This document shows positions 3,218 through 30,134 of a stretch of DNA of 30,134 nt, piece by piece. Source of the stretch: a virus; IMG/VR virus record IMGVR_UViG_3300000361_000007, positions 1 through 30,134 of that record; one strand, given 5' to 3'. Below the pieces are notes generated by a model. That model had not been told where the DNA came from, did no database searches, and saw nothing but the letters and a program-made list of their open reading frames with translations. Within the stretch, counting starts at the first letter, position 1. Each line of letters begins with the position of its first letter. The position numbers and the translations under genes were made by a program.

Positions 3218-3219
3218 AG

Positions 3220-3837: not shown

Positions 3838-3840
3838 GGA

Positions 3841-5076
3841 TTACACCTCCGTTGTGTCAATCTCAATCGACCCATCAGTTGCGTCTGTTGTCGCTCTCTC
3901 GTTGTCGTCTATAGAGATATTTGAGCTACCGGACGGTGGCTGCGACGTATCTACTTCGAGATTGTCGATATCATAGACACCGCGGATGTTGCGAATCGCG
4001 TATTTGATTTCTCCGATAACGACCTCCTCGCCAACACCGAGCTGGCCGCTGGCCGCGTTTCCTGTCGAAAGTATCCCACCGACGTATCTGGTAATTTCGT
4101 CACGAACTGCGTCGTCTCCCTCATACTCGTCCGTCACGCTGATATTAGCCGAGATGTATATTTGCACAGGGATGTGTCGAGAAAACTCAACGGAGAACGT
4201 CTGTCCGTTGCTCAGAGTAGCATCTGTCGTTACCGGACTGCCATACGCTCCGGCATAGGCTGTATCTCCCGCTGCCTTAGTTTCCAGTATTAATTGGCCT
4301 ATGTCTTCGTCGTCGCCTCCCTCAACGACCAGTTCAAATGAATGGGCGGGAAGGCCGCCGGACCCCGTGTTATCCACGCTCGTATCGTTGGTGAATATGG
4401 ATACGTTGGTCACTCCATCGAGCGAACTGGTACCAGAAACGAGTGCAGCAGCAGTTGCTTTTGCGCCCTCGGCCAGTTCGTGCTTTGCCCGCTCACGAAG
4501 TTCGTCGTCTGTCTCGCGTTCTGCTCCGCCCTCTGTTGGGTCCGGGTTAGTAACGGCCTCGATTCCAGACGGTGGTGTGGGCATAACCACGAGCGTGTTA
4601 GAGCCAAGTATTCCATCAACGCCGGGGTTCTTGGATTCGACGGGAACCGCTATTTCTGTGTCCCCTTCTTCAAGCGTTACAGACTGAGTCGTCTCGAACC
4701 GAACAGGGTCGAAGCGGTGGTCAGTCTGAACAGTCGTCCCTCTCGGAATTGTGTAGTCGGTGCTGGCGGCGTTCTCGCGGGAAAAGATTACCTCTCCCGT
4801 AGCACGCCGTCCAGAACGTCTCCGAACGCCGATAAGAGCAGTGAGTAAGTCCAATGCGCGACCATCGGCATTATCAATCTGAGCGGAGCTTAGAACGAGA
4901 CCGATATCTTGCTGTGCTTCCGCAAGACGCTCCGCTACTGGTGTATAAAAAGCACGAATAACGGAAAATTCGCCGTCGTTTAAGTCTTCACCGAACTCGT
5001 CTCGTGCATCTTCGATTAGCGCATCAAGAATGTCATCGGCGGTGTCTTCTACAAAAGTTCCATCTACAATAGTCAT
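3841..5076 (-). CDS. Baseplate J-like protein
   Basis: 411 residues, clear Baseplate_J family. The N-terminal helical part (about 10-75) contains DGRALDLLTALIGV, the family's usual entry motif. The TIPRGTTVQT segment near 113-122, NPGVDGILGSNT near 150-161 and the TDDELRERAKHEL helix near 188-200 are characteristic. The protein forms the baseplate wedge periphery that triggers sheath contraction. It overlaps no neighbour but is only 1 base from the gp25-like gene and 3 from the gpI-like gene, so the set is co-transcribed. Confidence 0.92.
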   Translation of the reverse strand: MTIVDGTFVEDTADDILDALIEDARDEFGEDLNDGEFSVIRAFYTPVAERLAEAQQDIGLVLSSAQIDNADGRALDLLTALIGVRRRSGRRATGEVIFSRENAASTDYTIPRGTTVQTDHRFDPVRFETTQSVTLEEGDTEIAVPVESKNPGVDGILGSNTLVVMPTPPSGIEAVTNPDPTEGGAERETDDELRERAKHELAEGAKATAAALVSGTSSLDGVTNVSIFTNDTSVDNTGSGGLPAHSFELVVEGGDDEDIGQLILETKAAGDTAYAGAYGSPVTTDATLSNGQTFSVEFSRHIPVQIYISANISVTDEYEGDDAVRDEITRYVGGILSTGNAASGQLGVGEEVVIGEIKYAIRNIRGVYDIDNLEVDTSQPPSGSSNISIDDNERATTDATDGSIEIDTTEV

Positions 5077-5398: not shown

Positions 5399-6051
5399 GC
5401 GATTTTTGTATCAGTCCCATCTTCGTTCGGTATATCTGTCGTCCCGCTGCCTCCTGAATCAGTCCAGCTATAATCGTGTGTGTGGTCTTGAATAGCCACA
5501 CTTACTGCCGACTCGACCTCACCGACTATAATATCAGTCAGTGCGTCGATAAAGACTGATTCCTCCGCGTCAACGGAAATGTCATTTTCTGACTCTATGA
5601 CGATATCATTCTCTGACTCGATAGTAACGTCGTGACCACCTTCGAGAACAATCTGATACCTGTTTACAAATTCGTCGTACACGAAAGACAAGTGTGTGTC
5701 CGAATCCGAAGCAAGGGTGATATCGTACTTTCCAGAATCGTTTTTCTGAAACCGCAGCTCGGTCTCGTCGTCAAGTTTCAGACACACGTCACCCTCTCCG
5801 AGACCTTCGGGGAGCTGTGGCTTCGCCGGATTATGCGGGAACCGGGCGACCCGTTCCCGGTCAACCGTTGCTACTTCAACAATATCACCCTCCTCTGGAA
5901 CGAGCCACATGGACGGTTTCGAGGTTAGGAATGGAATCTCACGCCGTTCAACGCCAGGGCCGGTAACGACGCTGACGAAGACCTTGTTTATTTCTTCGTC
6001 AACGAATACAGATGAGACTCGTCCAAGCTTTGTTTCCGTCATATAAATCAC
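5395..6051 (-). CDS. gpV-like baseplate spike protein
   Basis: 218 residues. The N-terminal half (about 5-90) has the alternating strand pattern of the OB-fold in gpV/gp5-type spikes. Residues 130-185 form repeated strands (TIESENDIVIESENDISV) typical of the triple-stranded beta-helix needle. A HTH sequence (His-x-His) near residue 193 could be the metal-binding spike tip described in gpV-type spikes. The start at 6051 overlaps the upstream stop as ATGA; a second ATG three codons later is an alternative start. Confidence 0.82.
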   Translation of the reverse strand: MIYMTETKLGRVSSVFVDEEINKVFVSVVTGPGVERREIPFLTSKPSMWLVPEEGDIVEVATVDRERVARFPHNPAKPQLPEGLGEGDVCLKLDDETELRFQKNDSGKYDITLASDSDTHLSFVYDEFVNRYQIVLEGGHDVTIESENDIVIESENDISVDAEESVFIDALTDIIVGEVESAVSVAIQDHTHDYSWTDSGGSGTTDIPNEDGTDTKIA

Positions 6052-9973: not shown

Positions 9974-10220
9974 CTGAACCGACGTTTACGAATGTTGTAG
10001 TGTCGCCCGCGCCCCCGCCGTTGGGACGGGACATACTGTTTACTCTCGGCCCAGGACCACTACCAGACTGTGCCTTCTCAATCTCCTCATGCTGTTTCCT
10101 GAAACCCTCCAACATAACGTATCGTTGAAGTGGTGTCATATCGCCCTGAGTGGGCGCGAGAGGCGTGTTGCCTTCCGTAGCAAGTGAAAAGACTGCGCTG
10201 CCGTTCCCTTCCTCAACGAA
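9960..10220 (-). CDS. Frameshift extension of the tail-assembly chaperone
   Basis: In the +1 frame relative to the chaperone gene, translation stays open from 10220 to a TAA at 9962-9960, giving 85 residues beyond the shifted Phe codon and overlapping the tape measure start. There is no ATG or GTG in this frame until about 10136, so independent initiation would lose a third of the frame. In the overlap the zero-frame reads AAA TTT CGT TGA; Phe-tRNA on TTT can re-pair with TTC one base on, a simple +1 slip site directly before a stop. The extension includes LQRYVMLEGFRKQHEE and ends DEQE. Tail chaperone pairs with programmed frameshifts are common in Caudoviricetes; the +1 direction here is inferred. 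Confidence 0.7.
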   Translation of the reverse strand, partial: FVEEGNGSAVFSLATEGNTPLAPTQGDMTPLQRYVMLEGFRKQHEEIEKAQSGSGPGPRVNSMSRPNGGGAGDTTTFVNVGSDEQE

Positions 10221-10650
10221 ATTTCTCAGCGTCGATTATGTCACCTGAGAGTTCCAGAACCTCGCCTCCTATTTCCAAAGAGAAACCGCCGACCATGTTA
10301 TCGACCATCCACTCGACCTCCTCGTCGGTGTGGCCCATATCCTCGCCAACGATTCCTGCCTTTGCGGCCTCCGCCATCAACTCAACGAACTCTGTGTCAA
10401 ATTCGGAAACGTCGATGAAGTCTGTGTCGCCACTCTCTTTTGCATCCTCGATTGCGTCGATTGCTTCTTCTTCGTCCATGTCGAATTTGTCTTCGAGTCT
10501 GCCCGTCAGAGGAATGAAAATCTTGTCGGGCAGTGGACGGATAATGACCTCGACGGTCTCACCGAACATTTCGAGTTCGATAGTTTCGCGGTAGTTTTTC
10601 CCTCGAACGACCATTTCGTACAACTTGGAATCGGGTGTATCGTTAGACAT
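10213..10650 (-). CDS. Tail-assembly chaperone
   Basis: 145 residues, very acidic, located between tail tube and tape measure, the position of lambda gpG or P2 gpE. The N-terminal half has strands (TIELEMFGETVEVIIRPLP) and the C-terminal half is helical with EAIDAIEDAKES and FVELMAEAAKAG. It would bind the tape measure and tube subunits during tail assembly. The zero-frame ends with AEKFR then TGA; a longer product through frameshift is described separately. Confidence 0.82.
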   Translation of the reverse strand: MSNDTPDSKLYEMVVRGKNYRETIELEMFGETVEVIIRPLPDKIFIPLTGRLEDKFDMDEEEAIDAIEDAKESGDTDFIDVSEFDTEFVELMAEAAKAGIVGEDMGHTDEEVEWMVDNMVGGFSLEIGGEVLELSGDIIDAEKFR

Positions 10651-10703
10651 AATGAATCAAATAATTGTTGTGATAGCGAGACCGGGTAGTTCCGTTCCGT
10701 TGT

Positions 10704-11105
10704 TTAGTTGTTCGGGTTCGTGTCTTCGTCCTTCGACATGGCAATCCACTCGAACTCCGTTTCCACGGTTTCGCCGGATGTTACCTCGTAGCCCTGATTT
10801 GTTACCAGTGCCGAGTCGAACGACGTTGAGCCACCGTCGAGATGTGTGACGGTGATAGAGCTAAGAATTTCGGGGACGCCGTTCTCGTCAAAGAACTTGT
10901 CCTCCAAGTCTTTCTTGTTCCCCTTGATGCTCATATTTCCGGCATAGCTAATCTCCGTGATAGCGTAGCCAGACGGGATGATGTTCCCTGCACCGTAGAT
11001 GGTGTCAATTTCGATTTCCTTGGTAAAGGAGAGCTGTTCAACTGCTACCTGTTCGTTGCCAACATTGACTACAATGTCAGCAGCGGCTTCCTTGCGGTCA
11101 ACCAT
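10704..11105 (-). CDS. Tail tube protein
   Basis: 133 residues, sized for an inner tail tube subunit of a contractile tail. It is strand-rich, with IDTIYGAGNIIPSGYAITEI near the first third, the YAGNMSIKG segment and TVETEFEWIAM near the end, resembling XkdM/gpFII-type tube proteins. It lies directly after the sheath gene and before the tail chaperone, the conserved sheath-tube-chaperone-tape order. An AT-rich stretch precedes its ATG and a strong hairpin separates it from the sheath gene. Confidence 0.85.
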   Translation of the reverse strand: MVDRKEAAADIVVNVGNEQVAVEQLSFTKEIEIDTIYGAGNIIPSGYAITEISYAGNMSIKGNKKDLEDKFFDENGVPEILSSITVTHLDGGSTSFDSALVTNQGYEVTSGETVETEFEWIAMSKDEDTNPNN

Positions 11106-11131
11106 AATAAATTTTATAAATTTCAGTTAGA

Positions 11132-11148
11132 GGCCGGGAACCCCGGCC
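11132..11148 (-). terminator. Strong hairpin between sheath and tube genes
   Basis: GGCCGGG/CCCGGCC forms a perfect 7-bp stem with a 3-nt loop, 36 bases after the sheath stop and about 26 bases before the tube ATG on the minus strand. It could be an attenuator, a terminator or an mRNA processing and stability element that sets the sheath to tube ratio. There is no T-tract directly behind it, so termination is not certain. Confidence 0.4.
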
Positions 11149-11184
11149 AAGTCAGAGAGTCCGTCAGTAAATTTCCGTCCGCGT

Positions 11185-12483
11185 TCAGGCGTCCACTTCG
11201 CCAGCCGTTACCGTGGCAACGATGTTGCGAAGCGGAGCAACCGTCGTAACACCAACGTCAACAGACGCGGTCATTGAATCGACCTCCTGAACGGAGACCG
11301 AGTAAGCCGTGATAGCGTTCAGACTCATCAGGTCTTTCAACTCGGACTTGATGATGTTCTGGAGCGCGTTTCGGGCAGATGCAGTGTGCAACTCTCCGAT
11401 AAAAGCGTCAGAGTTGGCCTGTACGACCAGAGTGACGTAATCCACAACGAGACGCGCAATGCCCTGGCGCATCTGATGTTCGGCAGAGTTATCCTCCTTT
11501 GCCGTCGTCACGTCTTCGATAATCCGAGAACCAGCACGCTCGTTGGATATCGGGATAACGCGCTCGTCCAGCAGGTCAGTCTTCTGCTCCGGGCTGAGTG
11601 TGTGTATCAGACTGTTCTGCGAATTGAGACGCTTCCGCATCGGTGACGCGCTAATACCGAGAGCCGACCGAAGGCCAAGGTACGAACCGATGATACTCTC
11701 ACCATCGCTGTTTCTGGACGGGTAGACGAGCTGGAGACGAGACGTGTCGTAGCTGTTTTCGTAGTCACCAACGGCATCATCGCTGATTTTGGTGTCAACA
11801 CCAGCAACACCGATAGCGAAGTTGTAGTCCATCGCCATCAGCTCGGTCGTCTCGACAAGCTTGTCAATTACGTCCTCATGTTCAGCGAGAACGCCAATGA
11901 AGTCAGCAGCATCCCCGGCACTGTCTGCGGGAACTGCATCGAGTGCGCTTTCGTAGTCCAGGTGCTGGTAATCAACTTCCAAAGAAGTCGCATTGGAATT
12001 GATGTGAAATTTTCCAGTAACGGGATTGATATAGAACTCGCCTGTTTCGGGTACGAAGTTCTCGGGGTCTTCGTATGTGAAAATTGGGTCTCCGAGAACC
12101 GTCGTCGGTTCTGACGGGTCAGACAAAATTACGTGCTCCGGGTCCTCCAGAATCGGAGCAGAATCCAGAGTCCCAACTTCCGTTCCAAATTCCTCACCGC
12201 TTATTTCTGTCTGTTCAACGGCCATCGCATAAACCGGGAACGCGCCCTCTCGGAGAGCGTCAATTATTGCATCCGTAAGGCTCGACTCGTCACCAAAGTA
12301 GTGTCGAGCACGAGAGGGCGTGCGAATCTGATATCCTTCATTCGGCTCCGCGACCGCGTTCTCGTCTTCTGCACCGCCAATAAGTAGAACGTCGCCGGGA
12401 GAACCGAGGCCAACTCCCACAGAACGGGAGCTTTCAACGGTAGTCTGTACGCCGGGTAAAACTGTATTTCCAATCGTAACCAT
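11185..12483 (-). CDS. Tail sheath protein
   Basis: 432 residues. N-terminal LPGVQTTVESSRSVG is the usual opening of sheath proteins, followed by GDVLLIGGAED and a variable acidic insertion (about 100-165). The C-terminal part includes NALQNIIKSELKDLM and a final beta strand (TVAPLRNIVATVTAGEV), the handshake-type end typical of phage sheaths. This gene shows the tail is contractile. Both the N- and C-terminal sheath regions are present, so it looks intact. Confidence 0.95.
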   Translation of the reverse strand: MVTIGNTVLPGVQTTVESSRSVGVGLGSPGDVLLIGGAEDENAVAEPNEGYQIRTPSRARHYFGDESSLTDAIIDALREGAFPVYAMAVEQTEISGEEFGTEVGTLDSAPILEDPEHVILSDPSEPTTVLGDPIFTYEDPENFVPETGEFYINPVTGKFHINSNATSLEVDYQHLDYESALDAVPADSAGDAADFIGVLAEHEDVIDKLVETTELMAMDYNFAIGVAGVDTKISDDAVGDYENSYDTSRLQLVYPSRNSDGESIIGSYLGLRSALGISASPMRKRLNSQNSLIHTLSPEQKTDLLDERVIPISNERAGSRIIEDVTTAKEDNSAEHQMRQGIARLVVDYVTLVVQANSDAFIGELHTASARNALQNIIKSELKDLMSLNAITAYSVSVQEVDSMTASVDVGVTTVAPLRNIVATVTAGEVDA

Positions 12484-12532
12484 GATAGAATCTGCTTGTT
12501 CAGAAAAATGTCGTGTAAATTATACCGAACCG

Positions 12533-13102
12533 CTACTGCTCGTCGGTCGGGACCAAGTACTCAATTTCGTATGGAACTTGCTCAAGGGTGTCCACTTCTG
12601 TGTCGATTATTTCCTTAAGGTATCTGAATGTGACAACTTGGTCAGTTTCCATCCAGTTGGGTTCCTGTGTCGGGTCCGCTCGTGAGATTGCATCTTCAAC
12701 CTGAAATTCAAACGCATCCTCGTGAAACTCGGTGGCATCGTACTCGAACGGCACGAAAATCTCCGAGAGCATATTCGTGATTTCGTCCCGACCTTCCTCA
12801 CCATAACTGCCATCTTCACGTTGCCGAATCGGCTCGTCGTCGTATGTCTTAACCCATAGGTCAAGGCGCATTTCAAAATATGCGTGTAGTACACGACCAA
12901 CGGCGTTCCCGTCGTTATCGTAGACCGAACCTGCGTATGGATTATTGCCGTGAAGGCGATTTAGACGCCGTTGCGACCACGAGATAATGACACACGGAAA
13001 CTCCATGAACTCTCCGCCACCTTCCGTCCGTACAGTAACGTCGTCGGGAAGGCCGTCATTGAGAACCTCAACTGTTCGATGAATTGCTTCTTTTTCGTTC
13101 AT
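12533..13102 (-). CDS. Tail completion / terminator-like protein
   Basis: 189 residues, acidic. An N-terminal helix (EAIHRTVEVLNDGLPDDV) is followed by a strand FPCVIISWSQRR and a second long strand with YFEMRLDLWVKT; this alpha-beta pattern is that of tail terminator or completion proteins that cap the tube and join it to the head. It lies directly upstream of the sheath gene, as expected. Its start overlaps the stop of the upstream small gene by one base (TAATG), suggesting coupled translation. Confidence 0.65.
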   Translation of the reverse strand: MNEKEAIHRTVEVLNDGLPDDVTVRTEGGGEFMEFPCVIISWSQRRLNRLHGNNPYAGSVYDNDGNAVGRVLHAYFEMRLDLWVKTYDDEPIRQREDGSYGEEGRDEITNMLSEIFVPFEYDATEFHEDAFEFQVEDAISRADPTQEPNWMETDQVVTFRYLKEIIDTEVDTLEQVPYEIEYLVPTDEQ

Positions 13103-13287
13103 TAGAATCCGCGCTTTTTTAGGTTCTTTTCTATTTCCTGTTCGGTCGTCTCCACGGCCTGCGACTGCATGACCAGAAAAGCATCGTTCATGTAGCCGAT
13201 GCCACGGAGACCGTCACGCTTTATTTTGCGCTGGAGATAGAACGCTCTGTCAACTACGGGCTTTGGATACGCACCAAGATTCGACAT
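13102..13287 (-). CDS. Small basic neck-region protein
   Basis: 61 residues, unusually basic for this genome (FYLQRKIKRDGLRG, ending EKNLKKRGF), mostly helical. No family recognised. It lies in the connector-to-tail cluster, 3 bases after the preceding gene and overlapping the tail completion gene by one base, so it is probably a minor neck or assembly component. The gap-free packing on both sides is the main reason to accept it as a real gene. Confidence 0.6.
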   Translation of the reverse strand: MSNLGAYPKPVVDRAFYLQRKIKRDGLRGIGYMNDAFLVMQSQAVETTEQEIEKNLKKRGF

Positions 13288-13290
13288 ACC

Positions 13291-13524
13291 TTACTCCTCG
13301 GCAGGGCCGTCCGGCGTCCACGACCAAGCATAATAGATTTCCGGCTGTCCCTCTCTCATTCCCTCCGCGAACTCCTTCGTGTAGAATCCGAGACGTTCGT
13401 CGTAGGGGTCCGGCCCCGCCTGAAACATATTGTTATCTTCCAACGGCTCGTCCAATTCATCCCAGTCGGGTTCGTTCTCTGGAACGGTCAGTTCCTCCCA
13501 CGTCGGCTCGTTGTCGGATGTCAT
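13291..13524 (-). CDS. Small acidic neck-region protein
   Basis: 77 residues, very acidic with a Pro/Glu/Asp/Trp-rich first half (repeated WEEL / WDEL) and a C-terminal segment with IYYAWSWTPDG. No family recognised. The start overlaps the upstream stop as ATGA and the stop is 3 bases from the next start. Position suggests a minor virion or assembly protein. Confidence 0.6.
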   Translation of the reverse strand: MTSDNEPTWEELTVPENEPDWDELDEPLEDNNMFQAGPDPYDERLGFYTKEFAEGMREGQPEIYYAWSWTPDGPAEE

Positions 13525-14921
13525 GCGATAATGTTATTGAACATCTGTCGTGCTTCGTCTCTCGTAAGTCCCTTTTCCTCATAAAGAAATCGGGAAACGT
13601 ATTCGTCGCGTAGATTAATCACACGCTGTTGACCTGCGGGACTTGTTACCTGTTGGTCGTATTTGCTAATTTGCTTGACGAGCTTAGTAAATGAGTGGAT
13701 TTCGGGGTCTGTAAACCCGCTAAAATCGCCCTGCTCAAACTCGTCTTGGAAGTCTGTGTACGGGCGCAGTTGTTTCACCTTCCCGTCGGGTCCCATCTCG
13801 TGATATGTGAGAAAGACATTGTCCGGCGAGAACGACGCGCCGTCTCCCCCGATAAGATGTAGTTCCATCTCACCTCTGTCTCCTGGGTGTGGGAAAACCC
13901 AGTCGGGAGCCATCGTTATGTCATCGTCAATCGAGACATTCCGTTCTGCAATGAGACCACGGTCGAATATCTTTGCCACCTCCATCTCGGTGGTGTAATT
14001 ATTAATTGCGCTCGCGTCGAATGTCCACCTATCCGCTGATGGATTGTCGAACATCTCAGCGGCTACTGGTCCGGTCTCTCTTGTAAGACCTCGAATAACG
14101 TCCATTCTGCCATCTTCGTCCCCCACCTGCTCGTGCAAGTGTATCTTCGAGAGCTCACTCCAAGCCCGGAATGCGTCAGCGTATTCGGCCTCTATATCTC
14201 CTACATAGGGTCCCCGAGATGTTCCCTCGATTCCGAATATCTCTTTTGTCGCTGCGGCGTATTTCTCTACCCGCTCGTTTCCGGGTTTGCTGCTAAGCTT
14301 CCACCGAGCGATTGATTTAGATACCTCGTCAACTTGGGCTGCATCCAATTCCGGGTGCTGACTGAGCGCGTCTCTAAGTTCACCAGCGCTCTGGACAGTC
14401 AGGAGGTCTCGGTCTATCTCTATGTCAACATCCGACCAAACCTCGTCAGATATTTGCTCGTAGTTTAGACGACCGGGAACGTTCTGGAGCCTCTGTTTAT
14501 TCGAGAACCGCTTCGACCTCGTAGTAGAATCTTTGCTTGAACTACCAGATGGTCCACCGTCGCCGTCTCCAGTGTCAGCGGAGCCCGGATTCCATTTCGA
14601 GATTACCCACGGAATCAGCGCCTCTACAGGGGGACCACGAGCGCCGTACACAGCTCCTTCTTCAACAGCACCGGCATGGGTAGCAAAGTTCCAAAGGACT
14701 GCTCTGCGCCCCTTCCCGATGCCCTCGTTCTGTCTGTCGAACGAGTTCATTAGCTCTCGACGCCAAACCCGACCACGCTTCTGAATCGTGTTCTTCGCGG
14801 TTTTCTCCCCTGCGTCGAGAAGGCGGTCTCCCGCATCCCGCATCCCGCCCTTTATCGAGCGACGAATACGGTCGGGGATATCGTCATCGTCAACACTAAC
14901 GGAGAATTTGAGTTTCGACAT
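13521..14921 (-). CDS. gp10-like neck protein fused to an ADP-ribosyltransferase-like domain
   Basis: 466 residues in two parts. Residues 1-110 resemble HK97-gp10-like neck proteins, with a helix of Arg and Lys, the AVEEGAVYGARGPPVEALIPW segment and a size near 110. A Gly/Ser/Asp linker (112-135) follows. Residues about 150-466 show the order expected of R-S-E ADP-ribosyltransferases: Arg in VIRGLT (R277), a Ser/Thr region with FDASAINNYTT then EVAKIF (301-319), and E-x-E in RGEMELHLIGG (E351, E353). Such enzymes move ADP-ribose from NAD to a target. In some viruses they are packaged and enter with the DNA. The C-terminal domain is a motif-based call; the neck part is supported by position. 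Confidence 0.7.
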   Translation of the reverse strand: MSKLKFSVSVDDDDIPDRIRRSIKGGMRDAGDRLLDAGEKTAKNTIQKRGRVWRRELMNSFDRQNEGIGKGRRAVLWNFATHAGAVEEGAVYGARGPPVEALIPWVISKWNPGSADTGDGDGGPSGSSSKDSTTRSKRFSNKQRLQNVPGRLNYEQISDEVWSDVDIEIDRDLLTVQSAGELRDALSQHPELDAAQVDEVSKSIARWKLSSKPGNERVEKYAAATKEIFGIEGTSRGPYVGDIEAEYADAFRAWSELSKIHLHEQVGDEDGRMDVIRGLTRETGPVAAEMFDNPSADRWTFDASAINNYTTEMEVAKIFDRGLIAERNVSIDDDITMAPDWVFPHPGDRGEMELHLIGGDGASFSPDNVFLTYHEMGPDGKVKQLRPYTDFQDEFEQGDFSGFTDPEIHSFTKLVKQISKYDQQVTSPAGQQRVINLRDEYVSRFLYEEKGLTRDEARQMFNNIIA

Positions 14922-14942
14922 GACAGGAGAAAGAAAGCCGGA

Positions 14943-15389
14943 TTACTGCTCGATGAAGCGCTGCAAGTTGCCTTCGATGTGAGTCTCGAACGGAGCGATT
15001 GTCTCCAGCTCCCACAACTGCTTTTCCGGGTTTGGATTCATCGGATATCGGGGAAGCGGATACTCGATTACGTCTTTCTCCTCCACCACCGCATCACTCG
15101 GGAAATAGATAATCGGTTCCCAGTAAACGTGTTCACCGAATCTCTCCTCGACACGGTCTATGCTGGAACCGCCGGGCGAGGTTCCCGTCGAATCAACGAC
15201 AGCCAACTGGTCGTCCGTGACCAGAAATTTTGACTCTATATCCTTTCCGTACCCGTCTTTTCCGCCAATTTCAACCTCACGCCAGACTTTGACGGGAACG
15301 CCCAGGCGCTGAAACATTAACTTGATTGTCTTGCGCCGGGCTGCGAGTATTCGTGACTGAGGCTGTTGGAGGTCGTGTTCTTCGGACAT
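14943..15389 (-). CDS. Neck / head-tail joining protein
   Basis: 148 residues, unassigned family. The N-terminal helix (SRILAARRKTIKLMFQRLG) is followed by strands (VKVWREVEIGG, KFLVTDDQLAVVDS) and a C-terminal part with YWEPIIYFPSDAVV and PFETHIEGNLQRF. The alternation and the location between two connector genes and the gp10-like gene fit a head-completion or stopper protein. The start overlaps the preceding gene by one base. Confidence 0.6.
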   Translation of the reverse strand: MSEEHDLQQPQSRILAARRKTIKLMFQRLGVPVKVWREVEIGGKDGYGKDIESKFLVTDDQLAVVDSTGTSPGGSSIDRVEERFGEHVYWEPIIYFPSDAVVEEKDVIEYPLPRYPMNPNPEKQLWELETIAPFETHIEGNLQRFIEQ

Positions 15390-15781
15390 TATCGGCTGTA
15401 CTCTCTGTTTTCCCTGTTGACAGTCGTAATGCCACCAGTGGCTGTGTCTGAGCGTAGAATGTTCAGATACTGGTCAAGACGGCGATACCACACCCGTGTA
15501 ATATCACGACGAGGGAACTGTTCCATCTTGATGGAGCCAATTTTCATGTCTACACCCTCCATTTCTCCCATGTGGATTTTGCTAAAGAGTGCCGTTGACC
15601 AGAAGGCAGCACGTTCAGCGGCAGGGTGGTCGAAATCTTCGGGATTTTCGCCTATAACGCCCTGAATGTCACTGACTGCGGCCTGATACAGAGTCTCCAT
15701 ATCTGAATCAGAGATTATATCGTTCGAGTATCCAGTTATTGTCCGAACTTCTTCAATTACTTCTATTTTATTAAACGGCAT
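15389..15781 (-). CDS. Head-tail connector (adaptor-like) protein
   Basis: 130 residues, mainly helical, with DMETLYQAAVSDIQGVIG near 28-45 and HPAAERAAFWSTALFSKIH near 51-70, a pattern seen in gp6/gp15-type connectors that bind beneath the portal. It lies two genes after the major capsid gene, where connectors are found in this gene order. Assigned from structure-like pattern and synteny, without a diagnostic motif. Confidence 0.65.
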   Translation of the reverse strand: MPFNKIEVIEEVRTITGYSNDIISDSDMETLYQAAVSDIQGVIGENPEDFDHPAAERAAFWSTALFSKIHMGEMEGVDMKIGSIKMEQFPRRDITRVWYRRLDQYLNILRSDTATGGITTVNRENREYSR

Positions 15782-15782
15782 A

Positions 15783-16172
15783 TCATACCTCCTGAATAGC
15801 GCTGATTAGTTTGTCGCGCCAGAAGTTCATCTGAGAATCCTCAAAATCCGTCCGGCGAATCATCGAAGGCAGCATTGGAACTGGAACGTGGTCCGGCGGG
15901 CCTCCCGGTGGCCCGGTTCCCTCACCGCCGGATGCGCGAGCCTTCTCAGAGATACGCAAGAATAGATAGTTTTCCAGCGCCGCCTTGCCCGCCTCCTCTC
16001 CGAAATTCAGAGATTCGCCATTATTCAGCCGCTCTCGAACTTCCTCCGAGATAAGCACCTTCGCACTTTCAAGCTCATCTTCTATGTCACTACGCGGGAC
16101 AGCGGCTTCGTCCGTCGCTCCTGTCTCGCTGCGAACTTTTGCGATTATTTTGCGGTCAAAAGACGACGCCAT
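15783..16172 (-). CDS. Head-tail connector / adaptor protein
   Basis: 129 residues. Helical with a first helix KIIAKVRSETGA, an acidic helix DIEDELESAKVLISEEVRE and GKAALENYLFLRISEKA, followed by a Gly/Pro-rich linker (about 81-95) and a C-terminal helix with NFWRDKLISAI. It is immediately downstream of the capsid gene and one base from the next connector gene. The best reading is a portal adaptor or minor capsid connector. Confidence 0.6.
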   Translation of the reverse strand: MASSFDRKIIAKVRSETGATDEAAVPRSDIEDELESAKVLISEEVRERLNNGESLNFGEEAGKAALENYLFLRISEKARASGGEGTGPPGGPPDHVPVPMLPSMIRRTDFEDSQMNFWRDKLISAIQEV

Positions 16173-16184
16173 GATTTATTAGAT

Positions 16185-17129
16185 TCAGGCGAGGTCGGTC
16201 GCGTGGAAGCTAACACCGGCCAGCGGGTCAGCAATGACCGCACCGTAGCGGACAGACCCGTAGCTGCCGAGCAACGCGCCGGGGTCTCCAATCGGGCCGC
16301 CGGTCTCACCCTGCGTGAGCTGCATTTCACGGGCCGTGTGGAAGTACAGCGGACGCTCGTCACCGGCAACTACGTGGACCTCGTCGCCGGTCAGCCACGC
16401 CGTCTGGAGCAGCACCGTGCCGTCGATGCGAAGTGTTGCGTCGGGAAGGGCGGTGGAGACCAGACCTTCCGCCTCTGGAATGAGGTACTGGGCATCGTAC
16501 GCCAGCTCGTCGACGAACTCGTTCGCCATGTCGTTCGAGAGCAGCGCGACGGTCGGGCGCTTGCCGTGGTGGCGAAGATGTTTGTTCGCTTCGCGGATGT
16601 GCCGCGTCGGAGTGAAGTTGTCGGCCTCACCGAACAGGTGCTCGGTGTCCTCGAACTGGTGGTTGTGGGTGCTGTCGAACTCGTATGCACCGTAGTTCTC
16701 CGGCTCGAACCAGAGGTTGTCGCCGTCCGCCCATCCGTCGCGGACAATGTCGAACAGAACCTCGTGTTCCTTGTCGAGAGCTCCTTCCAGAAGCTTCTCC
16801 CATTCGCGGCGAACAATGTCCGCCGTGTTGTCCTCGATGAACTCCTGAGTGTATCCGAGCGAGCGTCCGTACTTCTTGACCGAGAAGGCCATCTGGCTCG
16901 AATCCATCCGGCCAGTACGGGCGTGCTCACCCTCAGCAAGTTCCTCCCACGTCATATCGCCCGTGTGGACACGGAAAGTACGTTCGCTCACGTCCTGAGC
17001 GAGCAGTTGGCGGAATGGACGCTCTGCCTGATTGAAAATCTCGATATCCTCCAGCATATCGAGCATGAGGTCTTCAAGCGGAACGTCGTCCTTCGTCGTA
17101 ACCTGTCGGTAGAATCTGTCGTTAGCCAT
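16185..17129 (-). CDS. Major capsid protein (HK97 fold)
   Basis: 314 residues. Features of HK97-fold capsids: an N-terminal helix with EDLMLDMLEDIEIFN, an elongated loop-like segment VHTGDMTWEELAEGEH near 54-69, KYGRSLGYTQEFIED near 85-99, a long spine helix REANKHLRHHG near 178-188 with PTVALLSNDMANEF, and a C-terminal domain ending GSVRYGAVIADPLAG, the common capsid ending. It sits after cement, scaffold and protease genes. Codon use here is more GC-rich than in the small downstream genes, typical for a highly expressed gene. An AT-rich stretch 5' of the ATG may carry a separate promoter. Confidence 0.92.
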   Translation of the reverse strand: MANDRFYRQVTTKDDVPLEDLMLDMLEDIEIFNQAERPFRQLLAQDVSERTFRVHTGDMTWEELAEGEHARTGRMDSSQMAFSVKKYGRSLGYTQEFIEDNTADIVRREWEKLLEGALDKEHEVLFDIVRDGWADGDNLWFEPENYGAYEFDSTHNHQFEDTEHLFGEADNFTPTRHIREANKHLRHHGKRPTVALLSNDMANEFVDELAYDAQYLIPEAEGLVSTALPDATLRIDGTVLLQTAWLTGDEVHVVAGDERPLYFHTAREMQLTQGETGGPIGDPGALLGSYGSVRYGAVIADPLAGVSFHATDLA

Positions 17130-17175
17130 GATAAATCAGATAAATATGTTAAAATCGCTGTTGAATACGCCCGAT

Positions 17176-17649
17176 TTAGGCGTTAATTTCGTCCGACGCA
17201 CGAACGTCGAGACGAATCCGTTCCGCAGTCAGTGCCGTTCCGATTATCTGAACGAGAGAACCGGAACCGGCAGGAACGTCCTGTGTGTATTCCCCGCCTG
17301 CTCCGAGATAGACGGGTTCGCCGGGAGTAAATTCCCAGTCTTGGTCGCCGTTCTCGACCTCAACGCCATTCGAGACGGCAGAAACACGGTCGCGCTCAAC
17401 GAGCGCCCGCTCCGACTCAACTATGAGCGCGGTCGGGACGTTTTCGTCGCCGGTAAGCTCCGTCGCAGGAGTCAGACAAACACCAACGGCCATCTGTGGG
17501 CCGTCGCCTTCGTCGGCGGCATGGGCCTGCACCATGTAGCCTTCGTCGTTAATGCCGACGAGGTCTCCCTCGCTCATTTCTTCTCCGGCAACAGCACCGT
17601 GTCGGTTGATAGGCTGTTCAGCACCAGTCGCAATCTTTGGGTACGCCAT
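17176..17649 (-). CDS. Capsid decoration / cement protein
   Basis: 157 residues with the pattern of DUF2190-like capsid cement proteins: GAVAGEEMSEGDLVGI near the start, repeated V-GVCLTPATELTG style strands, GEPVYLGAGGEYTQ near 120-133 and a final strand IIGTALTAERIRL. Such proteins stabilise the expanded capsid. The gene lies between scaffold and major capsid genes, the usual location. Confidence 0.82.
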   Translation of the reverse strand: MAYPKIATGAEQPINRHGAVAGEEMSEGDLVGINDEGYMVQAHAADEGDGPQMAVGVCLTPATELTGDENVPTALIVESERALVERDRVSAVSNGVEVENGDQDWEFTPGEPVYLGAGGEYTQDVPAGSGSLVQIIGTALTAERIRLDVRASDEINA

Positions 17650-17678
17650 GATAATAGTGGAAAAATTATGTCAGAAAT

Positions 17679-18152
17679 TCACTCGACGGAGATACCGCCA
17701 ATGCGCGAAACGCGGCTCTTGGCAGCTTCACGCCGACTCTCCTCGCCGGAGACTACAGGGGCCTTCGAGGGCTTGTCGGCAAACAGAGTAACATCCTCGT
17801 CGTCCTCTCCTTCGTCCTCGTCCTCCGAGAACTCCTGCTCCTCCTCCTCTGTCTCGTCTGCCTGTGCAGCGAGACCAACAAGCTCGTCTATCGAGAAACG
17901 CTCAACGAGAAGGTCTTCGTTCAGTTTCGTGACCTCCGAAGCCTTCTGCGCGAAGTAGCCAGCAGCCTCCTCAATGTCGGCTTCCAGCTCCTCGATGGTC
18001 TCGGAAAACTCAGCGGCCTTCTCGGCCTCTGCCTGAACATCCGAAAACTCCTCGACGTTTTCCTCGTGCGCTTCCATGACCTGCGAGAACGTCTCTCGGA
18101 GGTCGGCTTCGCTCATTTCGTCAATCGGGGTCTCAAGTTCAATCTTCTTCAT
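17679..18152 (-). CDS. Scaffolding protein
   Basis: 157 residues, almost wholly helical and extremely acidic: a long coiled-coil-like region (about 10-90) with heptad spacing, then an Asp/Glu run around residues 100-125, and a more basic C-terminus (RREAAKSRVSRIGG) that could bind the capsid protein. This composition and its location between protease and cement genes fit an internal scaffold that the protease removes. No catalytic motif present. Confidence 0.8.
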   Translation of the reverse strand: MKKIELETPIDEMSEADLRETFSQVMEAHEENVEEFSDVQAEAEKAAEFSETIEELEADIEEAAGYFAQKASEVTKLNEDLLVERFSIDELVGLAAQADETEEEEQEFSEDEDEGEDDEDVTLFADKPSKAPVVSGEESRREAAKSRVSRIGGISVE

Positions 18153-18153
18153 G

Positions 18154-18810
18154 TTAGAAATCGTAGTGGTAAATTCGTGCCCGGTTGCATCCTTTCAAAT
18201 GAGACGTTGCTTCCGGGCCGTTGCTTTCAGTCTCGTCAGAGAACAGACCGGCTTCTCTGGCCGCGTCCGCGAACTGTGGCGATAATCCTCCATCACTGCC
18301 GTATCCAGCCGGGAAGGGCGTGAGGGAAAACTCCACCATCGTTGCGTCAACGAACTCAGGTTCTCCAGCATCGTTCCGCTCAATGCGGTAATCGTTGCCG
18401 AATCCTACAGAGCCGTCATTGATAGCCGGGGGTTCGTGCGTAAAGTCCGCAATCACGTCTGACCGGACAGTACTCCCAGTGTTGGGGACGTGTCCGAGAA
18501 CACGCAGAAAGTCGTTAGTAAACTTTACGTCCTTAATGTGGCCGACGTTTGCGAGCTGACCCTGTGAGTGGTCGAGCTGCATCGGGAGTCCGTCTGAAAA
18601 GTTTCCTGCCACGCGGTCCAGAAACTCATTCGTCACGCGGATTCCCTTACGAAGACCGGGCTCCATAGCCGCGAAAATCACATCTATAGAGCCGTCCTCG
18701 TACTCTTTCACTCCGTATCGGTTAAACCCGGACTCGGCTTCGATGCCGATTGGACGGGCGAACGAGACATTAAAAGAGAGTTCTTCGTCAATGTTATAAT
18801 TATTAGTCAT
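18154..18810 (-). CDS. Prohead protease
   Basis: 218 residues. The prohead protease pattern is visible: a His in QLDHSQG (H81) followed by GHIKDVKF, then a Ser in VEFSLTPFPA (S162), the two catalytic residues of this family; the EFSLTPFP block is the most diagnostic part. It would cleave scaffold and capsid N-termini during maturation. The C-terminal tail (after about 190) is Cys/Arg-containing and may be trimmed. It is one base from the scaffold gene. Confidence 0.88.
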   Translation of the reverse strand: MTNNYNIDEELSFNVSFARPIGIEAESGFNRYGVKEYEDGSIDVIFAAMEPGLRKGIRVTNEFLDRVAGNFSDGLPMQLDHSQGQLANVGHIKDVKFTNDFLRVLGHVPNTGSTVRSDVIADFTHEPPAINDGSVGFGNDYRIERNDAGEPEFVDATMVEFSLTPFPAGYGSDGGLSPQFADAAREAGLFSDETESNGPEATSHLKGCNRARIYHYDF

Positions 18811-18820
18811 CTATCCTGTT

Positions 18821-19075
18821 TTATATCAACTCAAATACATACGCAGTAAACGATGTGAACAGGATTGTAATTGCACCAACCATTGCCGTGAGAATGATTG
18901 AGTTTTTGTGCGTCTTAGTTTCCAGTTTAGCAATTCGAGCGTCTTTGGAGTTCGATTCCTTGACGTAGCGCTTTTGGAACTGTGCTAAATTATGTTCTAT
19001 ATTTCGAGTCCGTTCTGCGGTTTGAGCTGTGTTTTTTAAAATTTCGTTAAGTTGATTTTGGTCGGACATTTTCAC
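18821..19075 (-). CDS. Coiled-coil protein with C-terminal membrane segment
   Basis: 84 residues. Residues 5-55 form a charged heptad-like helix (EHNLAQFQKRYVKE, KDARIAKLETKTHK); residues about 60-82 are a single hydrophobic helix ending FELI. This layout is that of XhlA/haemolysin-like and some holin-associated proteins, but here it lies between portal and protease, where lysis genes are not expected. The start overlaps the portal stop by ATGA (19075/19072). A role in anchoring capsid assembly at a membrane is an alternative; neither is proved. Confidence 0.7.
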   Translation of the reverse strand: MKMSDQNQLNEILKNTAQTAERTRNIEHNLAQFQKRYVKESNSKDARIAKLETKTHKNSIILTAMVGAITILFTSFTAYVFELI

Positions 19076-20481
19076 TCATTCGTTACGTCGCCCTGATTTC
19101 GTCCGTCTGAGCTATCCCGCTCAGGGTTCTGTCGGGACTTGACCTCCCTTCCAGCGGACTCGGCTCCTGCACCAGTATCGGTTGGCGCACCACCCTCGGG
19201 GTTCTGAATAGCGTCTCCAGACCCCCGCAAATCTTGAAGTAGAGCAACAATTTCACCGAGTTCGTTATCGTCAGGAAGCTCGGCTTCGGGGTCTATTCCG
19301 ACTCGGTGAGCAAACGCCTCCCGTGTAAGGAAACCTTCGTTGAATAGCTTAATTGCCGCGTCTATATCCAAGCGCTCCTCGTCACTGGAGTGCTGTCCGA
19401 ACTCAAAGTCCGGTGGATATTCTGTGTAATCTTCGGGATTCGGGTCGCCAAGGATAGACACGAATATCTGGTGTCTAATTGCCTGACGGATAGTTGCCCG
19501 ATACCGCTGAATACGGCGGTCAAATTTGGGCATTACGGCCACAGATGTGTTTCGGTTAACATCCACGTCCATGTTCATTAAGAAGGCGGGAACGCCGAGA
19601 CCGGCAGCAATCCGCTTCTGCAAGTGAGCGAACGTGCTGTCGAGATTCAGCATACCGGCGCTTGCAGACGTGCTCGACGTTCCAATAACATCATGGTCAA
19701 CATCGTGCCCGACAGCAAGCATGGACTCTGGCTCGATTTGTTCAACCGTCTCAAGCCATTCTTCAATTTGATTCGGACTCCACGGGCGCTCCTCGGTCCC
19801 AAGCTTCCACAACACAGGCGGATACGCCTTCGTGGAAATGAACCTCGCCAAGTCAATCTCCATGTCACGGAGGAAATCTGCCTGTTCCTCGACTCGTTCA
19901 ACGAGAGAATGACCGAAATCTTCGCCGGGGTGTCGGTGAAATCGAAGAACCGCAATATCGAAGGCGTCGAACGGAATATCATCGGCTCCGCCCTCGTCTT
20001 CCATCAGGTATTCTTCGACGTTCCCGAACTCGTCCGTCTGAATCTTCATCCGTTCCGTTGGGAGCAGTTTCGGCTTGAAAACGCCGTCTTCAACGACAAT
20101 TTCAAGGAACGCTGTTCCGTCAACGAGAGCGTGCCAGACCCACTCGTGGAGAACGGTTTCAAACTGCGAAGATTCGATTAGCTTTTTGAAGTCTGCTATG
20201 TCTTCGTCGGTCTGCTCCTGTTCTGTGAACGGGATATTAGCGGGTGTGACGGCGAACCCTGAGCCTACCAGATAGTCCACCAAAGTATCAATCCCGTCCG
20301 CGATATGGGGGTCTCGTGCAATGAGACGGAACTTTTCAATTTGCTGTTCTGGCGGCTCCGAAACTTCCGGGCGACCCGTGGCACCGGATGCCGGTTTGAT
20401 GACGGCCCTCGGGGCCTCCAGATGGAAACCAATCCGACCATCAGCAGCCCGCCGCATCATGGCCTGTTTAACGTCACTCAT
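19072..20481 (-). CDS. Portal protein
   Basis: 469 residues, portal size. The N-terminal part carries PHIADGIDTLVDYLVGSGF near 55-75, followed by TDEDIADFKKLI and WHALVDGTAFLEIV. The central part has GHSLVERVEEQADFLRDME and KRIAAGLGVPAFLMNMDV near 280-300, typical of phage portals before the crown helix (KFDRRIQRYRATIRQAIRH). The C-terminus is an acidic low-complexity tail. It follows the large terminase by 15 bases, as expected. Confidence 0.9.
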   Translation of the reverse strand: MSDVKQAMMRRAADGRIGFHLEAPRAVIKPASGATGRPEVSEPPEQQIEKFRLIARDPHIADGIDTLVDYLVGSGFAVTPANIPFTEQEQTDEDIADFKKLIESSQFETVLHEWVWHALVDGTAFLEIVVEDGVFKPKLLPTERMKIQTDEFGNVEEYLMEDEGGADDIPFDAFDIAVLRFHRHPGEDFGHSLVERVEEQADFLRDMEIDLARFISTKAYPPVLWKLGTEERPWSPNQIEEWLETVEQIEPESMLAVGHDVDHDVIGTSSTSASAGMLNLDSTFAHLQKRIAAGLGVPAFLMNMDVDVNRNTSVAVMPKFDRRIQRYRATIRQAIRHQIFVSILGDPNPEDYTEYPPDFEFGQHSSDEERLDIDAAIKLFNEGFLTREAFAHRVGIDPEAELPDDNELGEIVALLQDLRGSGDAIQNPEGGAPTDTGAGAESAGREVKSRQNPERDSSDGRNQGDVTNE

Positions 20482-27845: not shown

Positions 27846-28228
27846 ATGACCTGCTGAAATCTGAAAAATTCTGAGCAAGTTACGTCCCCACGCGCCCGCG
27901 CACCCCCGTGCGTGACCGTGTTGCAACCGCAGCGCTTGCGTATGGCACTTTTGCGTGGCATCGCGTACGGGCATCGCGCCAGCGCCCGCGCCCGCGCCCG
28001 CTCGCCACGACGCAGCGTATGAGCGCTACGCATTGCGTATGGCACCGCCTGTACGCAACCGTATGACAGGACAAAATCGAGAGACGGCAGCCCGATAGAC
28101 GCATCCGTTCGCAACGGGACGCTGGCAGCGCATCGCTCGCTCGCTCGTTCGCACCCCCGCGTAGCGCTCGCAACACGACAGTTACCGGCAGATATTGCCT
28201 ACAAATCAGTGTCGCGCAGCAGAGTTGA
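27846..28228. repeat. GC-rich non-coding stretch with direct and inverted repeats
   Basis: This stretch is more GC-rich than the virus genes. TTGCGTATGGCAC occurs twice exactly (27936-27948, 28033-28045), each preceded by AGCGCT, and partial copies (TTGCGTGGCA at 27951-27960; GGCATCGCG) surround them. There is a tandem CGCGCC-type run near 27974-28000 and a 7-bp inverted repeat TTGCGTA/TACGCAA (28033-28058). ORFs here give Arg/Cys-rich proteins unlike the acidic genes nearby, so it is judged non-coding. An origin with iteron-like repeats or a host-derived segment are both possible. Confidence 0.5.
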
Positions 28229-28249
28229 GTATATAAAGGGTATATAAAG
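28229..28249 (-). promoter_or_regulatory. Two tandem archaeal TATA boxes facing left
   Basis: GTATATAAAG occurs twice, at 28229-28238 and 28240-28249, 11 bases apart. Its complement CTTTATATAC is close to the archaeal BRE/TATA consensus, so leftward transcription into the GC-rich region would start near 28200-28215. No protein gene lies downstream until the HNH gene on the other strand, suggesting a non-coding or antisense transcript. Confidence 0.45.
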
Positions 28250-28388
28250 ACAAGGCCTACTCAAACGACCAATATCACTCAGTAATATCTTAATATAATC
28301 ATCACCATGCTATTGTCAAGCACAGCACAGAGAAGGCCTGAAACAGCCGAAAACAAGCGAATCAAGTTATTAAAATGAAATCGACACC

Positions 28389-28395
28389 TTTAAGT
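28389..28395 (+). promoter_or_regulatory. Candidate promoter of the structured RNA
   Basis: TTTAAGT is a TATA-like element of haloarchaeal type. A start about 25 bases downstream (near 28415) coincides with the first paired segment of the structured RNA, which supports the assignment. Another AT-rich box (TTAATATAA near 28290) is an alternative upstream promoter. Confidence 0.4.
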
Positions 28396-28414
28396 CATCA
28401 CCCATCTGTGTCGT

Positions 28415-29497
28415 GGTATCGACTGATGAACCGAAAGGCGAGGTCGTGGCCGTCGTTTGTACGGTCGCAAGCCACACACCTGCCAACGACCACGGGTGAC
28501 AGACGTACGAGGCAGGTGTACCCGACCACGGGAGTCGGGCACGCCATACTCGGATGTGGGCTTAGGTCCACGTCGAGGCATGGATGGAACGAGAGCCAGC
28601 CTGTAGGCTGTCCTCCGAGTGCCCCTCAAGGGTTCGCGCCCTCCGGGTAATGAGGCGCGAGACACAGCCAAGGCGCAAGCCTGTGCAAAGCCGTAGAAGT
28701 GGTCAAGCCCCTCCGGGGCTTATCGGGTTCCCAAATACACGGGAGAGTTCGCCCCCTTCACATGGCAAGCCATGTGACCTTCACGGGTCATAGGGTTGGA
28801 CAGCGAAGCCTGACTGACGACCTCTCACACTCTACGAGTGTCACGTCGTCGGAACGGTGGAGTCAGAGGTGCAGCCTTCGGCTTGAACCGGGACACAGAG
28901 CGCTTCCCACCTTCGGTGGTAGTAGCATGGTGTCACGTTCGATGACCACACAACAGAGTTGTGTGACGACAAGAACGCCGGGCTTTGTGCAAGGAGGCCC
29001 CGGAAGGGGACGGCGAAGGTGAATACTGCCTTATAAGGCAGCGGAATTTCCTCGGCGTGAATAGGCCTTTGGCCTACACGGTGCAGCCAAGCTGATGACG
29101 CCAGAGCGGTTCCCGGCCATCTCCCTACGGGAGAATCACCACTGACCACCCTCCGGGTGGCAAGGTCGGATTGTGTGATGACGGCAGAGGCACTCAAGCG
29201 AAGCTTGTTCGAGATGGGCAAATTCCTACGGAATTTCAACGATTCCGTTCACTCCTCGGAGTGAACGCCGGAAGCACAGGACATGAGTCCTGTCCGAACA
29301 GGTGCCGAGCGAGTTCGAGGCGAAGCAGCTCACCCCTTGGGGTGAGTTCCGATAAGGTGCAGCCAGCGGATACCACGGTTCCCTCGGGAACCGCCGCTAA
29401 AGGCCAATGACGCACGGACTGCTAAAGCAGTCACTTGGGCGAACCGGAAGCCACCGATAGGTGGTACAGAAAATCGACGTGGTCTTTTGACCAAAAC
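28415..29497 (+). ncRNA. Large hairpin-array RNA, previously unrecognised
   Basis: No ORF here resembles the acidic proteins of this genome. The sequence is a series of perfect short hairpins. From the 5' end: CGAC/GTCG with inner CC-GAAA-GG (28420-28446), GTGGC/GCCAC (28446-28475), a 9-bp stem ACACCTGCC/GGCAGGTGT (28476-28519), CCCGAC/GTCGGG (28521-28539). From 28597 on, about twenty stems of 5-9 bp with 3-4 nt loops follow, for example at 28705, 28758, 28827, 28947, 29026, 29062, 29120, 29146, 29220, 29246, 29277, 29329, 29376 and 29417. Outer helices enclose some (28816-28850, 29056-29080, 29365-29398). Loops recur: TAC, TCC, TTC, CTCG. It resembles in style, not sequence, large ornate RNAs such as GOLLD, ROOL and OLE. 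Confidence 0.75.
28868..29364 (+). repeat. Repeated short motifs inside the structured RNA
   Basis: GGTGCAGCC occurs three times (28868-28876, 29080-29088, 29356-29364). TGATGACGSCAGAG occurs twice (29093-29106, 29176-29189). AACGCCGG occurs twice (28974-28981, 29264-29271). TGATGA, the C-box motif bound by L7Ae in kink-turns, is found at 28424, 29093 and 29176. These are single-stranded or junction segments between hairpins and suggest repeated modules. Confidence 0.6.
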
Positions 29498-29552
29498 GCT
29501 GCTGACTGGTGTTACCCCTACGGGGTAGTGGGTTCGATTCCCACAAGCAGCA
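29498..29552 (+). ncRNA. tRNA-like structure at the 3' end of the RNA
   Basis: The 5' acceptor strand GCTGCTG (29498-29504) pairs with AAGCAGC (29545-29551) over 6 bp plus one G-A, and A29552 is in the discriminator place. The T-arm is perfect: GTGGG (29528-29532), loop TTCGATT (29533-29539), CCCAC (29540-29544), joined directly to the acceptor stem. Between them are eight bases with a GG that could dock on the T-loop, and a 6-bp hairpin TACCCC-TAC-GGGGTA (29513-29527) in place of D and anticodon arms. No anticodon loop exists, so it is not a decoding tRNA. It could be a processing signal for RNase P and tRNase Z, as in mascRNA of MALAT1, or a tmRNA-like end domain. Confidence 0.7.
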
Positions 29553-29553
29553 T

Positions 29554-30106
29554 GGCTTCAACTGGAAGCCTGACCTCTATCTCCACAGGAGATACGTCAC
29601 AGAACAGCAGAACTATGGCAGCTATCCCCAACTTCGCAGAAGTTGCACAGAGCGAGAACAAAGAAGCGGCTGAGTCGGAGACTCAGAAAGGCGAGACAGT
29701 ACAGACACTCGAACTCACCGAAGGTGAGATTGACAACTACACGGCGTATGAGGCGATGGTGGACGTTGGCCGCTACGCCTCAGCTCTGCTGAAGGAAACC
29801 GGCGACGACCGTTACCAGTCAGTCGTAGACTGGGCAGTGGAAAAGAAAGAAGAACTCCGTAAGGAGTGCAAGGAACAGGACGGGAACCTCCCGATGTTCC
29901 GGGCAGCCTTCCCGGTCGAGGACCGCGCAAATGATGTGTGGGTCCTTCCCGCCGAGGAAGCGGCAGAGGTCGGCATCGACTACGACAGCGAGGACTACAT
30001 AGCCCTTCCCGTCTACGACGGGACGAAGTGGAACCCGAAGCTGATTGACGACGAGCCTGTCGAAGACAGCAACGACGAGAGCGAGACGGAGACCGTCGAA
30101 GACGGT
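29554..30106 (+). repeat. Hairpins embedded in the following ORF
   Basis: Perfect stems with mostly 3-nt loops continue through the leader and coding region: GGCTTC (29554-29570, 5-nt loop), TATCTCC-ACA (29578-29594), CAACTTC-GCA (29629-29645), CTGAGTC-GGA (29670-29686), CTCACC-GAA (29714-29728), TCAGC-TCT (29780-29792), CAGTC-GTA (29820-29832), ACTCC-GTAA (29854-29867), TCCCGTC-TAC (30007-30023), CTGTC-GAA (30057-30069), ACCGTC-GAA (30092-30106). Confidence 0.85.
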
Positions 30107-30134
30107 GAGCCACAGACAGAAGCTCAGAAGCGGG
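29615..30134 (+). CDS. Acidic protein, 3' end beyond the window
   Basis: Open to the window end (at least 173 codons). Composition is haloarchaeal: Glu/Asp-rich with a helix NYTAYEAMVDVGRYASALL near 40-58, VVDWAVEKKEELRKE near 67-82, a strand part with FRAAFPVED and VWVLPAEEAAEVGIDY near 95-125, IALPVYDGTKWNPK and an acidic tail. No family recognised. An in-frame ATG at 29552 overlaps the last base of the tRNA-like structure; cleavage there would remove it, so 29615 is preferred. It is linked to the structured RNA by proximity, direction and shared hairpins. Confidence 0.7.
   Translation, partial: MAAIPNFAEVAQSENKEAAESETQKGETVQTLELTEGEIDNYTAYEAMVDVGRYASALLKETGDDRYQSVVDWAVEKKEELRKECKEQDGNLPMFRAAFPVEDRANDVWVLPAEEAAEVGIDYDSEDYIALPVYDGTKWNPKLIDDEPVEDSNDESETETVEDGEPQTEAQKR

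Follow-up and report, generated by a model that had tools for sequence, protein, structure and literature searches.

Why should the end of a viral contig carry a dense run of small perfect hairpins that continues through a protein-coding gene, and does the pressure behind it act on DNA or on RNA? The locus in question is the right end of virus record IMGVR_UViG_3300000361_000007, which we analysed over its full 30,134 bases (the window). It is a plus-strand unit truncated at the contig edge, and the large genes ahead of it are mostly on the minus strand. Portal, terminases, tape measure, integrase and an HNH gene point to the haloarchaeal tailed viruses, and the portal is 59% identical to that of HRTV-25 and 52% to that of HF2, both Hafunaviridae. 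On these genes we assign the window to a haloarchaeal tailed virus that is a relative of Hafunaviridae. Its portal is 83% identical to that of a provirus in Natronorubrum sulfidifaciens; this provirus, of the same virus type, holds the entire hairpin locus (strain JCM 14089, contig NZ_AOHX01000026.1, L009 2700-4678). The papers on these viruses that we checked contain no description of a hairpin locus.

Hairpin excess in the non-coding part and in the gene

Hairpins were counted as perfect Watson-Crick stems of at least 5 bp with loops of 3-5 nt, and expected numbers were taken from 200 dinucleotide shuffles. The excess that the first-pass annotation had reported for 29554-30134 is borne out by this count: 14 hairpins with stems of 5+ (13 with loops of 3-4 nt) are present against 1.5 expected and a maximum of 5 in the 200 shuffles, with 7 stems of 6+ (0.38 expected) and 4 of 7+ (0.08 expected). 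The preceding segment, 28375-29553, has 21, 15 and 8 hairpins with stems of 5+, 6+ and 7+ (3.4, 0.9 and 0.2 expected). Two control segments of the window behave as shuffled DNA does, with 5, 0 and 0 at 2000-5000, at or under expectation, and 33, 7 and 3 at 10000-20000 (29, 7.5 and 1.9 expected). Expressed as density (stem 5+, loop 3-4), the non-coding part has about 18 per kb, the gene fragment about 23 and the remaining window 2.6; host 23S rRNA loci including flanks have about 5-6. Past the end of the gene hairpin density drops. The two findings named beforehand as fatal to a special pressure, equal density in ordinary genes and homologues free of hairpins, did not turn up: ordinary genes of these genomes carry 2-3 such hairpins per kb, and no hairpin-free homologue was found among those of the protein. 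CRISPR repeats likewise form short hairpins and were considered as a decoy; no common flank was visible by eye.

Features of the hairpin locus, with the provirus counterpart of each hairpin (all on the plus strand)
Position	Feature	Basis or remark
28230..28249	Double TATA-like motif TATATAAAGGGTATATAAAG, likely promoter of the hairpin transcript	Read directly from the letters
28597..29493	Non-coding hairpin array, candidate large structured ncRNA	Hairpin excess; fold z -6.45; provirus hairpin coincidence
29498..29551	tRNA-like minihelix: 7-nt acceptor strand (6 pairs), one hairpin, T-arm GTGGGTTCGATTCCCAC	Rfam match and geometry scan
29513..29527	TACCCC-TAC-GGGGTA	Inside tRNA-like element
29554..29570	GGCTTC-AACTG-GAAGCC	Leader if start is 29615
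29578..29594	TATCTCC-ACA-GGAGATA	Leader if start is 29615
29615..30134 (alternative start 29552)	Acidic protein gene, 3' end beyond contig	phrog_29632; provirus homologue
29629..29645	CAACTTC-GCA-GAAGTTG	Provirus CCACC-TTC-GGTGG 3 columns off, residues differ
29670..29686	CTGAGTC-GGA-GACTCAG	Provirus hairpin displaced by 7 nt
29714..29728	CTCACC-GAA-GGTGAG (LTEGE)	Provirus CTGACC-GAA-GGTCAG (LTEGQ), compensatory
29780..29792	TCAGC-TCT-GCTGA	No provirus match
29820..29832	CAGTC-GTA-GACTG (SVVDW)	Provirus CACTC-TTC-GAGTG (ALFEW), compensatory
29854..29867	ACTCC-GTAA-GGAGT (GNRA loop)	Provirus CACTCC-GTGA-GGAGTG
29881..29893	CGGGA-ACC-TCCCG	No provirus match
29913..29925	CGGTC-GAG-GACCG	No provirus match
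30007..30023	TCCCGTC-TAC-GACGGGA (PVYDG)	Provirus TTCCCATC-TCC-GATGGGAA (PISDG), compensatory
30057..30069	CTGTC-GAA-GACAG	No provirus match
30085..30097	GACGG-AGA-CCGTC	Overlaps and competes with hairpin 30092..30106
30092..30106	ACCGTC-GAA-GACGGT (TVEDG)	Provirus hairpin at same place

The frame that these hairpins run through matches phrog_29632 (E 1.6e-55, residues 23-190 numbered from 29552), and its product is 54% identical to a 318-aa provirus protein. Since the alignment with this homologue begins at the ATG at 29615 (MAAIPNF / MAIESIPTF), the start at 29552 is probably wrong, and the first two hairpins of the 29554-30134 segment then lie in a leader, outside the protein. The placement of the hairpins inside a reading frame thus holds for the other 12 and probably fails for these two. 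A search of IMG/VR and phage homologues with the gene fragment gave no match, and the provirus was reached via the portal protein; among 391 haloarchaeal genomes a true homologue was found in N. sulfidifaciens only. Other listed haloarchaeal matches were weak; most covered only the profile's acidic middle, and we took them to be low-complexity. An AlphaFold2 model of the window protein was unusable (pLDDT 39).

HF2 has the same layout, with an unannotated hairpin-rich region (305-1970) followed by HrrHF2_005 (1970-2875), which has internal hairpins. The dN/dS of the HF2-group gene at this place is near 0.2 (dS 0.27-0.57, dN 0.04-0.12), which marks it as a real protein gene. When the codons of the window gene were shuffled with protein and codon usage kept, 2.35 hairpins with stems of 5+ remained on average against 12 observed (p<=0.002), and the genes of the provirus, HF2, HRTV-15 and HRTV-25 are likewise above their own synonymous-codon shuffles. 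The coding hairpins are not accounted for by codon usage or by protein sequence.

Conserved positions, rewritten stems and loop types

The window's own RNA comparison is one of two sequences, window and provirus. Aligned by codon (63% nucleotide identity), the two have hairpins centred no more than 3 nt apart at 7 of the 13 places where the window has one; 1.4 would be expected (p<1e-4). At three of them (29714, 29820 and 30007) the stem is preserved by paired changes that alter the protein. Non-coding hairpins coincide in 12 of 19 cases (2.9 expected, maximum 8 in 5000), and here too stems are rewritten, as in GACTGC-TAAA-GCAGTC against GACACC-GGAA-GGTGTC. The 17 HF2-group loci give a broader comparison: hairpins stand at fixed codon positions, and stems of 6+ number 4-6 in the gene, 4-14 upstream (up to 1.3 kb) and 0-3 in the 1.2 kb downstream. 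Their alignment holds 53 non-coding and 5 coding pairs with at least two Watson-Crick types, so few in the gene that its covariation is thin. In the leader RNAalifold finds compensatory pairs in 37 local and 14 long-range helices, as well as in middle-range ones. The first-pass annotation had proposed that the same bases answer to two constraints and that the pressure belongs to the transcript, not solely to its non-coding part; codon shuffles, the matched coding hairpins with their compensatory changes and conservation across the HF2-group loci all uphold both proposals.

The same alignments bear on whether the hairpins arrived as small mobile insertions, comparable to mitochondrial GC clusters or double-hairpin elements. 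The C-G-closed triloops common to many hairpins would suit such an origin, but a common unit sequence is absent, coding hairpins preserve the frame and vary by paired substitutions, and only 1 of 19 and 2 of 20 hairpins are wholly gapped in the relative. As the gap fraction is 0.14-0.15 inside hairpins and 0.17 outside, they are gapped no more than their surroundings and are not inserted units; the suggestion of mobile elements fails, and we leave it hardly any probability. A mutational origin, in which template switching perfects imperfect palindromes and leaves hairpins that have no function, would explain why the excess is confined to perfect stems. Such a bias would, however, need to hit one transcription unit only, and RNA-type loops, positions conserved at about 60% nucleotide identity and amino-acid replacements point to selection, so that we think this origin very improbable.

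Strand and loop types separate RNA from DNA. Among 81 distinct tetraloop hairpins, GNRA, UNCG or CUUG loops occur 23 times on the transcribed strand and 3 times on the other (p 2e-5); control tetraloop hairpins from the same genomes divide 21 to 17. Triloops are closed by C-G in 58 of 73 cases at hairpin loci against 49 of 192 in the control. RNA-type tetraloops on the plus strand and C-G-closed triloops together favour selection on the transcript. It should be noted, however, that stems with one G-U pair are not in excess at the hairpin loci, which is unusual for RNA-only selection and counts against our preferred reading; host 23S rRNA has a small G-U excess only by the same crude count. A second point against it is that the minus strand of the gene, though it folds less stably than the plus strand, does not do so strikingly (z -1.23 versus -2.88).

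A function at the DNA level would have the hairpins serve as recombination sites or form in single-stranded DNA, for instance close to the genome end when DNA is replicated, packaged or injected. It draws some strength from the perfect stems that do not tolerate G-T and from the HF2 locus, which adjoins the terminal repeat and a putative nick site. Against it, the stable-RNA tetraloops keep largely to the transcribed strand, the array stops near the end of one transcription unit, at a point that has no DNA landmark, and GNA and TNC triloops are found in both orientations. The strand bias disfavours the single-stranded DNA stage that had been listed among possible causes, and we regard a DNA-level function as improbable.

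Processing-type elements and related viruses

Between the non-coding array and the gene lies the tRNA-like element, with an acceptor stem and T-arm and lacking canonical D- and anticodon arms. It matches the Rfam mascRNA-menRNA model (RF01684) over its full length (model 1-56, 30.2 bits, E 0.0014), under the gathering score of 42.5. We consider it a probable processing site for RNase P and RNase Z. HRTV-25, which has the same layout on the minus strand with gp107 last, carries at the corresponding place, just ahead of gp107, a type II hammerhead (RF02276, L012 20522-20595, minus; 42.3 bits versus gathering 37; core CUGAUGA / CGAAAC) that is unannotated in the record. Ahead of the HRTV-25 hairpin locus there is also a copy of TATATAAAGGGTATATAA, an 18-mer from the window's double TATA motif. 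Each of the 17 HF2-group loci has a T-arm minihelix behind the gene, which in HF2 lies at 2905-2945, between the first and second CDS. Perfect T-arms number 1-6 per genome including true tRNAs, against 0-0.3 expected, and the recurrent minihelices suggest processing of viral transcripts in the style of tRNA punctuation.

HF2 transcripts have been described as very long by RT-PCR and as 0.5-9 kb on Northern blots, for which the authors suggested processing; by RT-PCR they also distinguished two transcripts, the short F1, which starts at the first CDS, and the long F2 (PMC8707807). The F1/F2 division would be consistent with a break at the minihelix, and cutting at the tRNA-like and hammerhead elements would be a testable explanation of why RT-PCR transcripts are long and Northern ones short.

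Profile comparison finds gp107 weakly similar (E 0.013, 33% over 101 columns) and does not link the HF2-group protein to other locus proteins. Hairpin character is shared across loci whose proteins are unrelated or barely related. The evidence as a whole supports a folded, processed early transcript with an array that is maintained regardless of coding status. HRTV-27, the next relative, has no comparable hairpin hot spot, and pattern scans using conserved single-strand blocks gave chance matches only.

A probable hairpin-array transcript and its possible roles

Read from sequence as regards transcription, cleavage and function, the locus probably gives rise early in infection to a transcript, partly large structured ncRNA and partly mRNA, in which selection on the RNA maintains an array of small stable hairpins. 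Transcription would begin at the double TATA near 28230, and the RNA would fold into closely spaced short perfect hairpins whose small loops are closed by C-G. A large structured non-coding RNA would make up the first 1.2 kb, and the array would run on through the acidic-protein gene, with codons and some amino acids chosen to preserve stems. Built-in elements would cut the primary transcript into units: the tRNA-like minihelix via host RNase P and RNase Z in the window, in HRTV-25 the self-cleaving hammerhead that takes its place, and in the HF2 group the T-arm minihelix behind the gene. We infer these cuts from the predicted elements.

What the array is for can be answered only tentatively: it may give a compact, nuclease-resistant RNA with few single-stranded stretches, and so a long-lived, abundant RNA or an RNP scaffold early in infection. 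The next most likely function is that of a binding-site array for a structure-specific RNA-binding protein, perhaps the encoded one, which would coat both RNAs and form an RNP or a decoy for a host factor. Conserved positions with rewritten stems are what a shape-specific binder would leave, and the array does span ncRNA and mRNA. Against this, loops vary (TNC, GNA, TAA, GNRA, UUCG, CUUG) around no single motif, proteins at the hairpin loci have no recognised domain and no relationship of the HF2-group protein to the others could be detected, so that we hold a hairpin-binding protein to be rather unlikely.

The nearest known systems are GOLLD, ROOL and OLE, which are likewise long, richly structured non-coding RNAs; phages and prophages carry the genes for GOLLD and ROOL, in many cases close to tRNA genes (PMC12286853). 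Covarying structure with long-range helices, a trait of these RNAs, is present in the HF2-group leader. Here, in contrast, the carrier is a haloarchaeal virus, the structure consists mostly of small local perfect hairpins and it extends through a protein gene. Their Rfam models give no gathering match in the window, HF2, HRTV-25, HRTV-27, provirus or HRTV-15 loci, and none at E<=5 in window 28000-30134. The window's 54-nt element resembles those of MALAT1 and MEN-beta in matching the entire mascRNA-menRNA model and ending a long ncRNA, but it scores under gathering, belongs to an archaeal virus and is followed by a gene, and its cleavage is predicted. The type II hammerhead stands at the ncRNA/gene junction in HRTV-25, where the window has the tRNA-like element instead; HF2 has a known hammerhead elsewhere in its genome. 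Coding-region structures of RNA viruses are similarly held in frame by synonymous and compensatory change, whereas this is one transcription unit of an archaeal dsDNA virus with perfect triloop and tetraloop hairpins. We put forward with some reservation that these loci may be an undescribed class of viral RNA gene, a hairpin-array ncRNA plus mRNA with a protein partly dictated by hairpins, in which lineages would swap the junction device (tRNA-like or hammerhead) and keep the array.

The left end of the HF2 record has about 1.6 kb with no annotated gene ahead of the first gene; our results suggest a large structured RNA here, with the same structure carried into the first gene. If confirmed, archaeal viruses would have an equivalent of the ornate phage RNAs, and one whose function could be studied in culture (HF2 / Halorubrum coriense). 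The locus would also be a clear natural example of a DNA virus in which RNA structure shapes the sequence of a protein.

Coding-strand T-arm minihelices with perfect T-stems recur in these genomes, mostly in short intergenic gaps of early modules. They lie in HF2 at L046 4370-4414, in HRTV-25 at L012 17782-17857 (minus), in HRTV-27 at L044 23653-23726, 18511-18568 and 16380-16433 (all minus) and in the provirus at L009 5719-5772, the last with a second T-loop-like hairpin, TTCGGGCTTCAATTGCCCGAA, immediately 3' of it (5775-5795). Two modest perfect-hairpin peaks (7 per 600 nt, mean 1.7) occur in HVTV-1 (Druskaviridae), at L048 about 900-1500 and 14400-15000.
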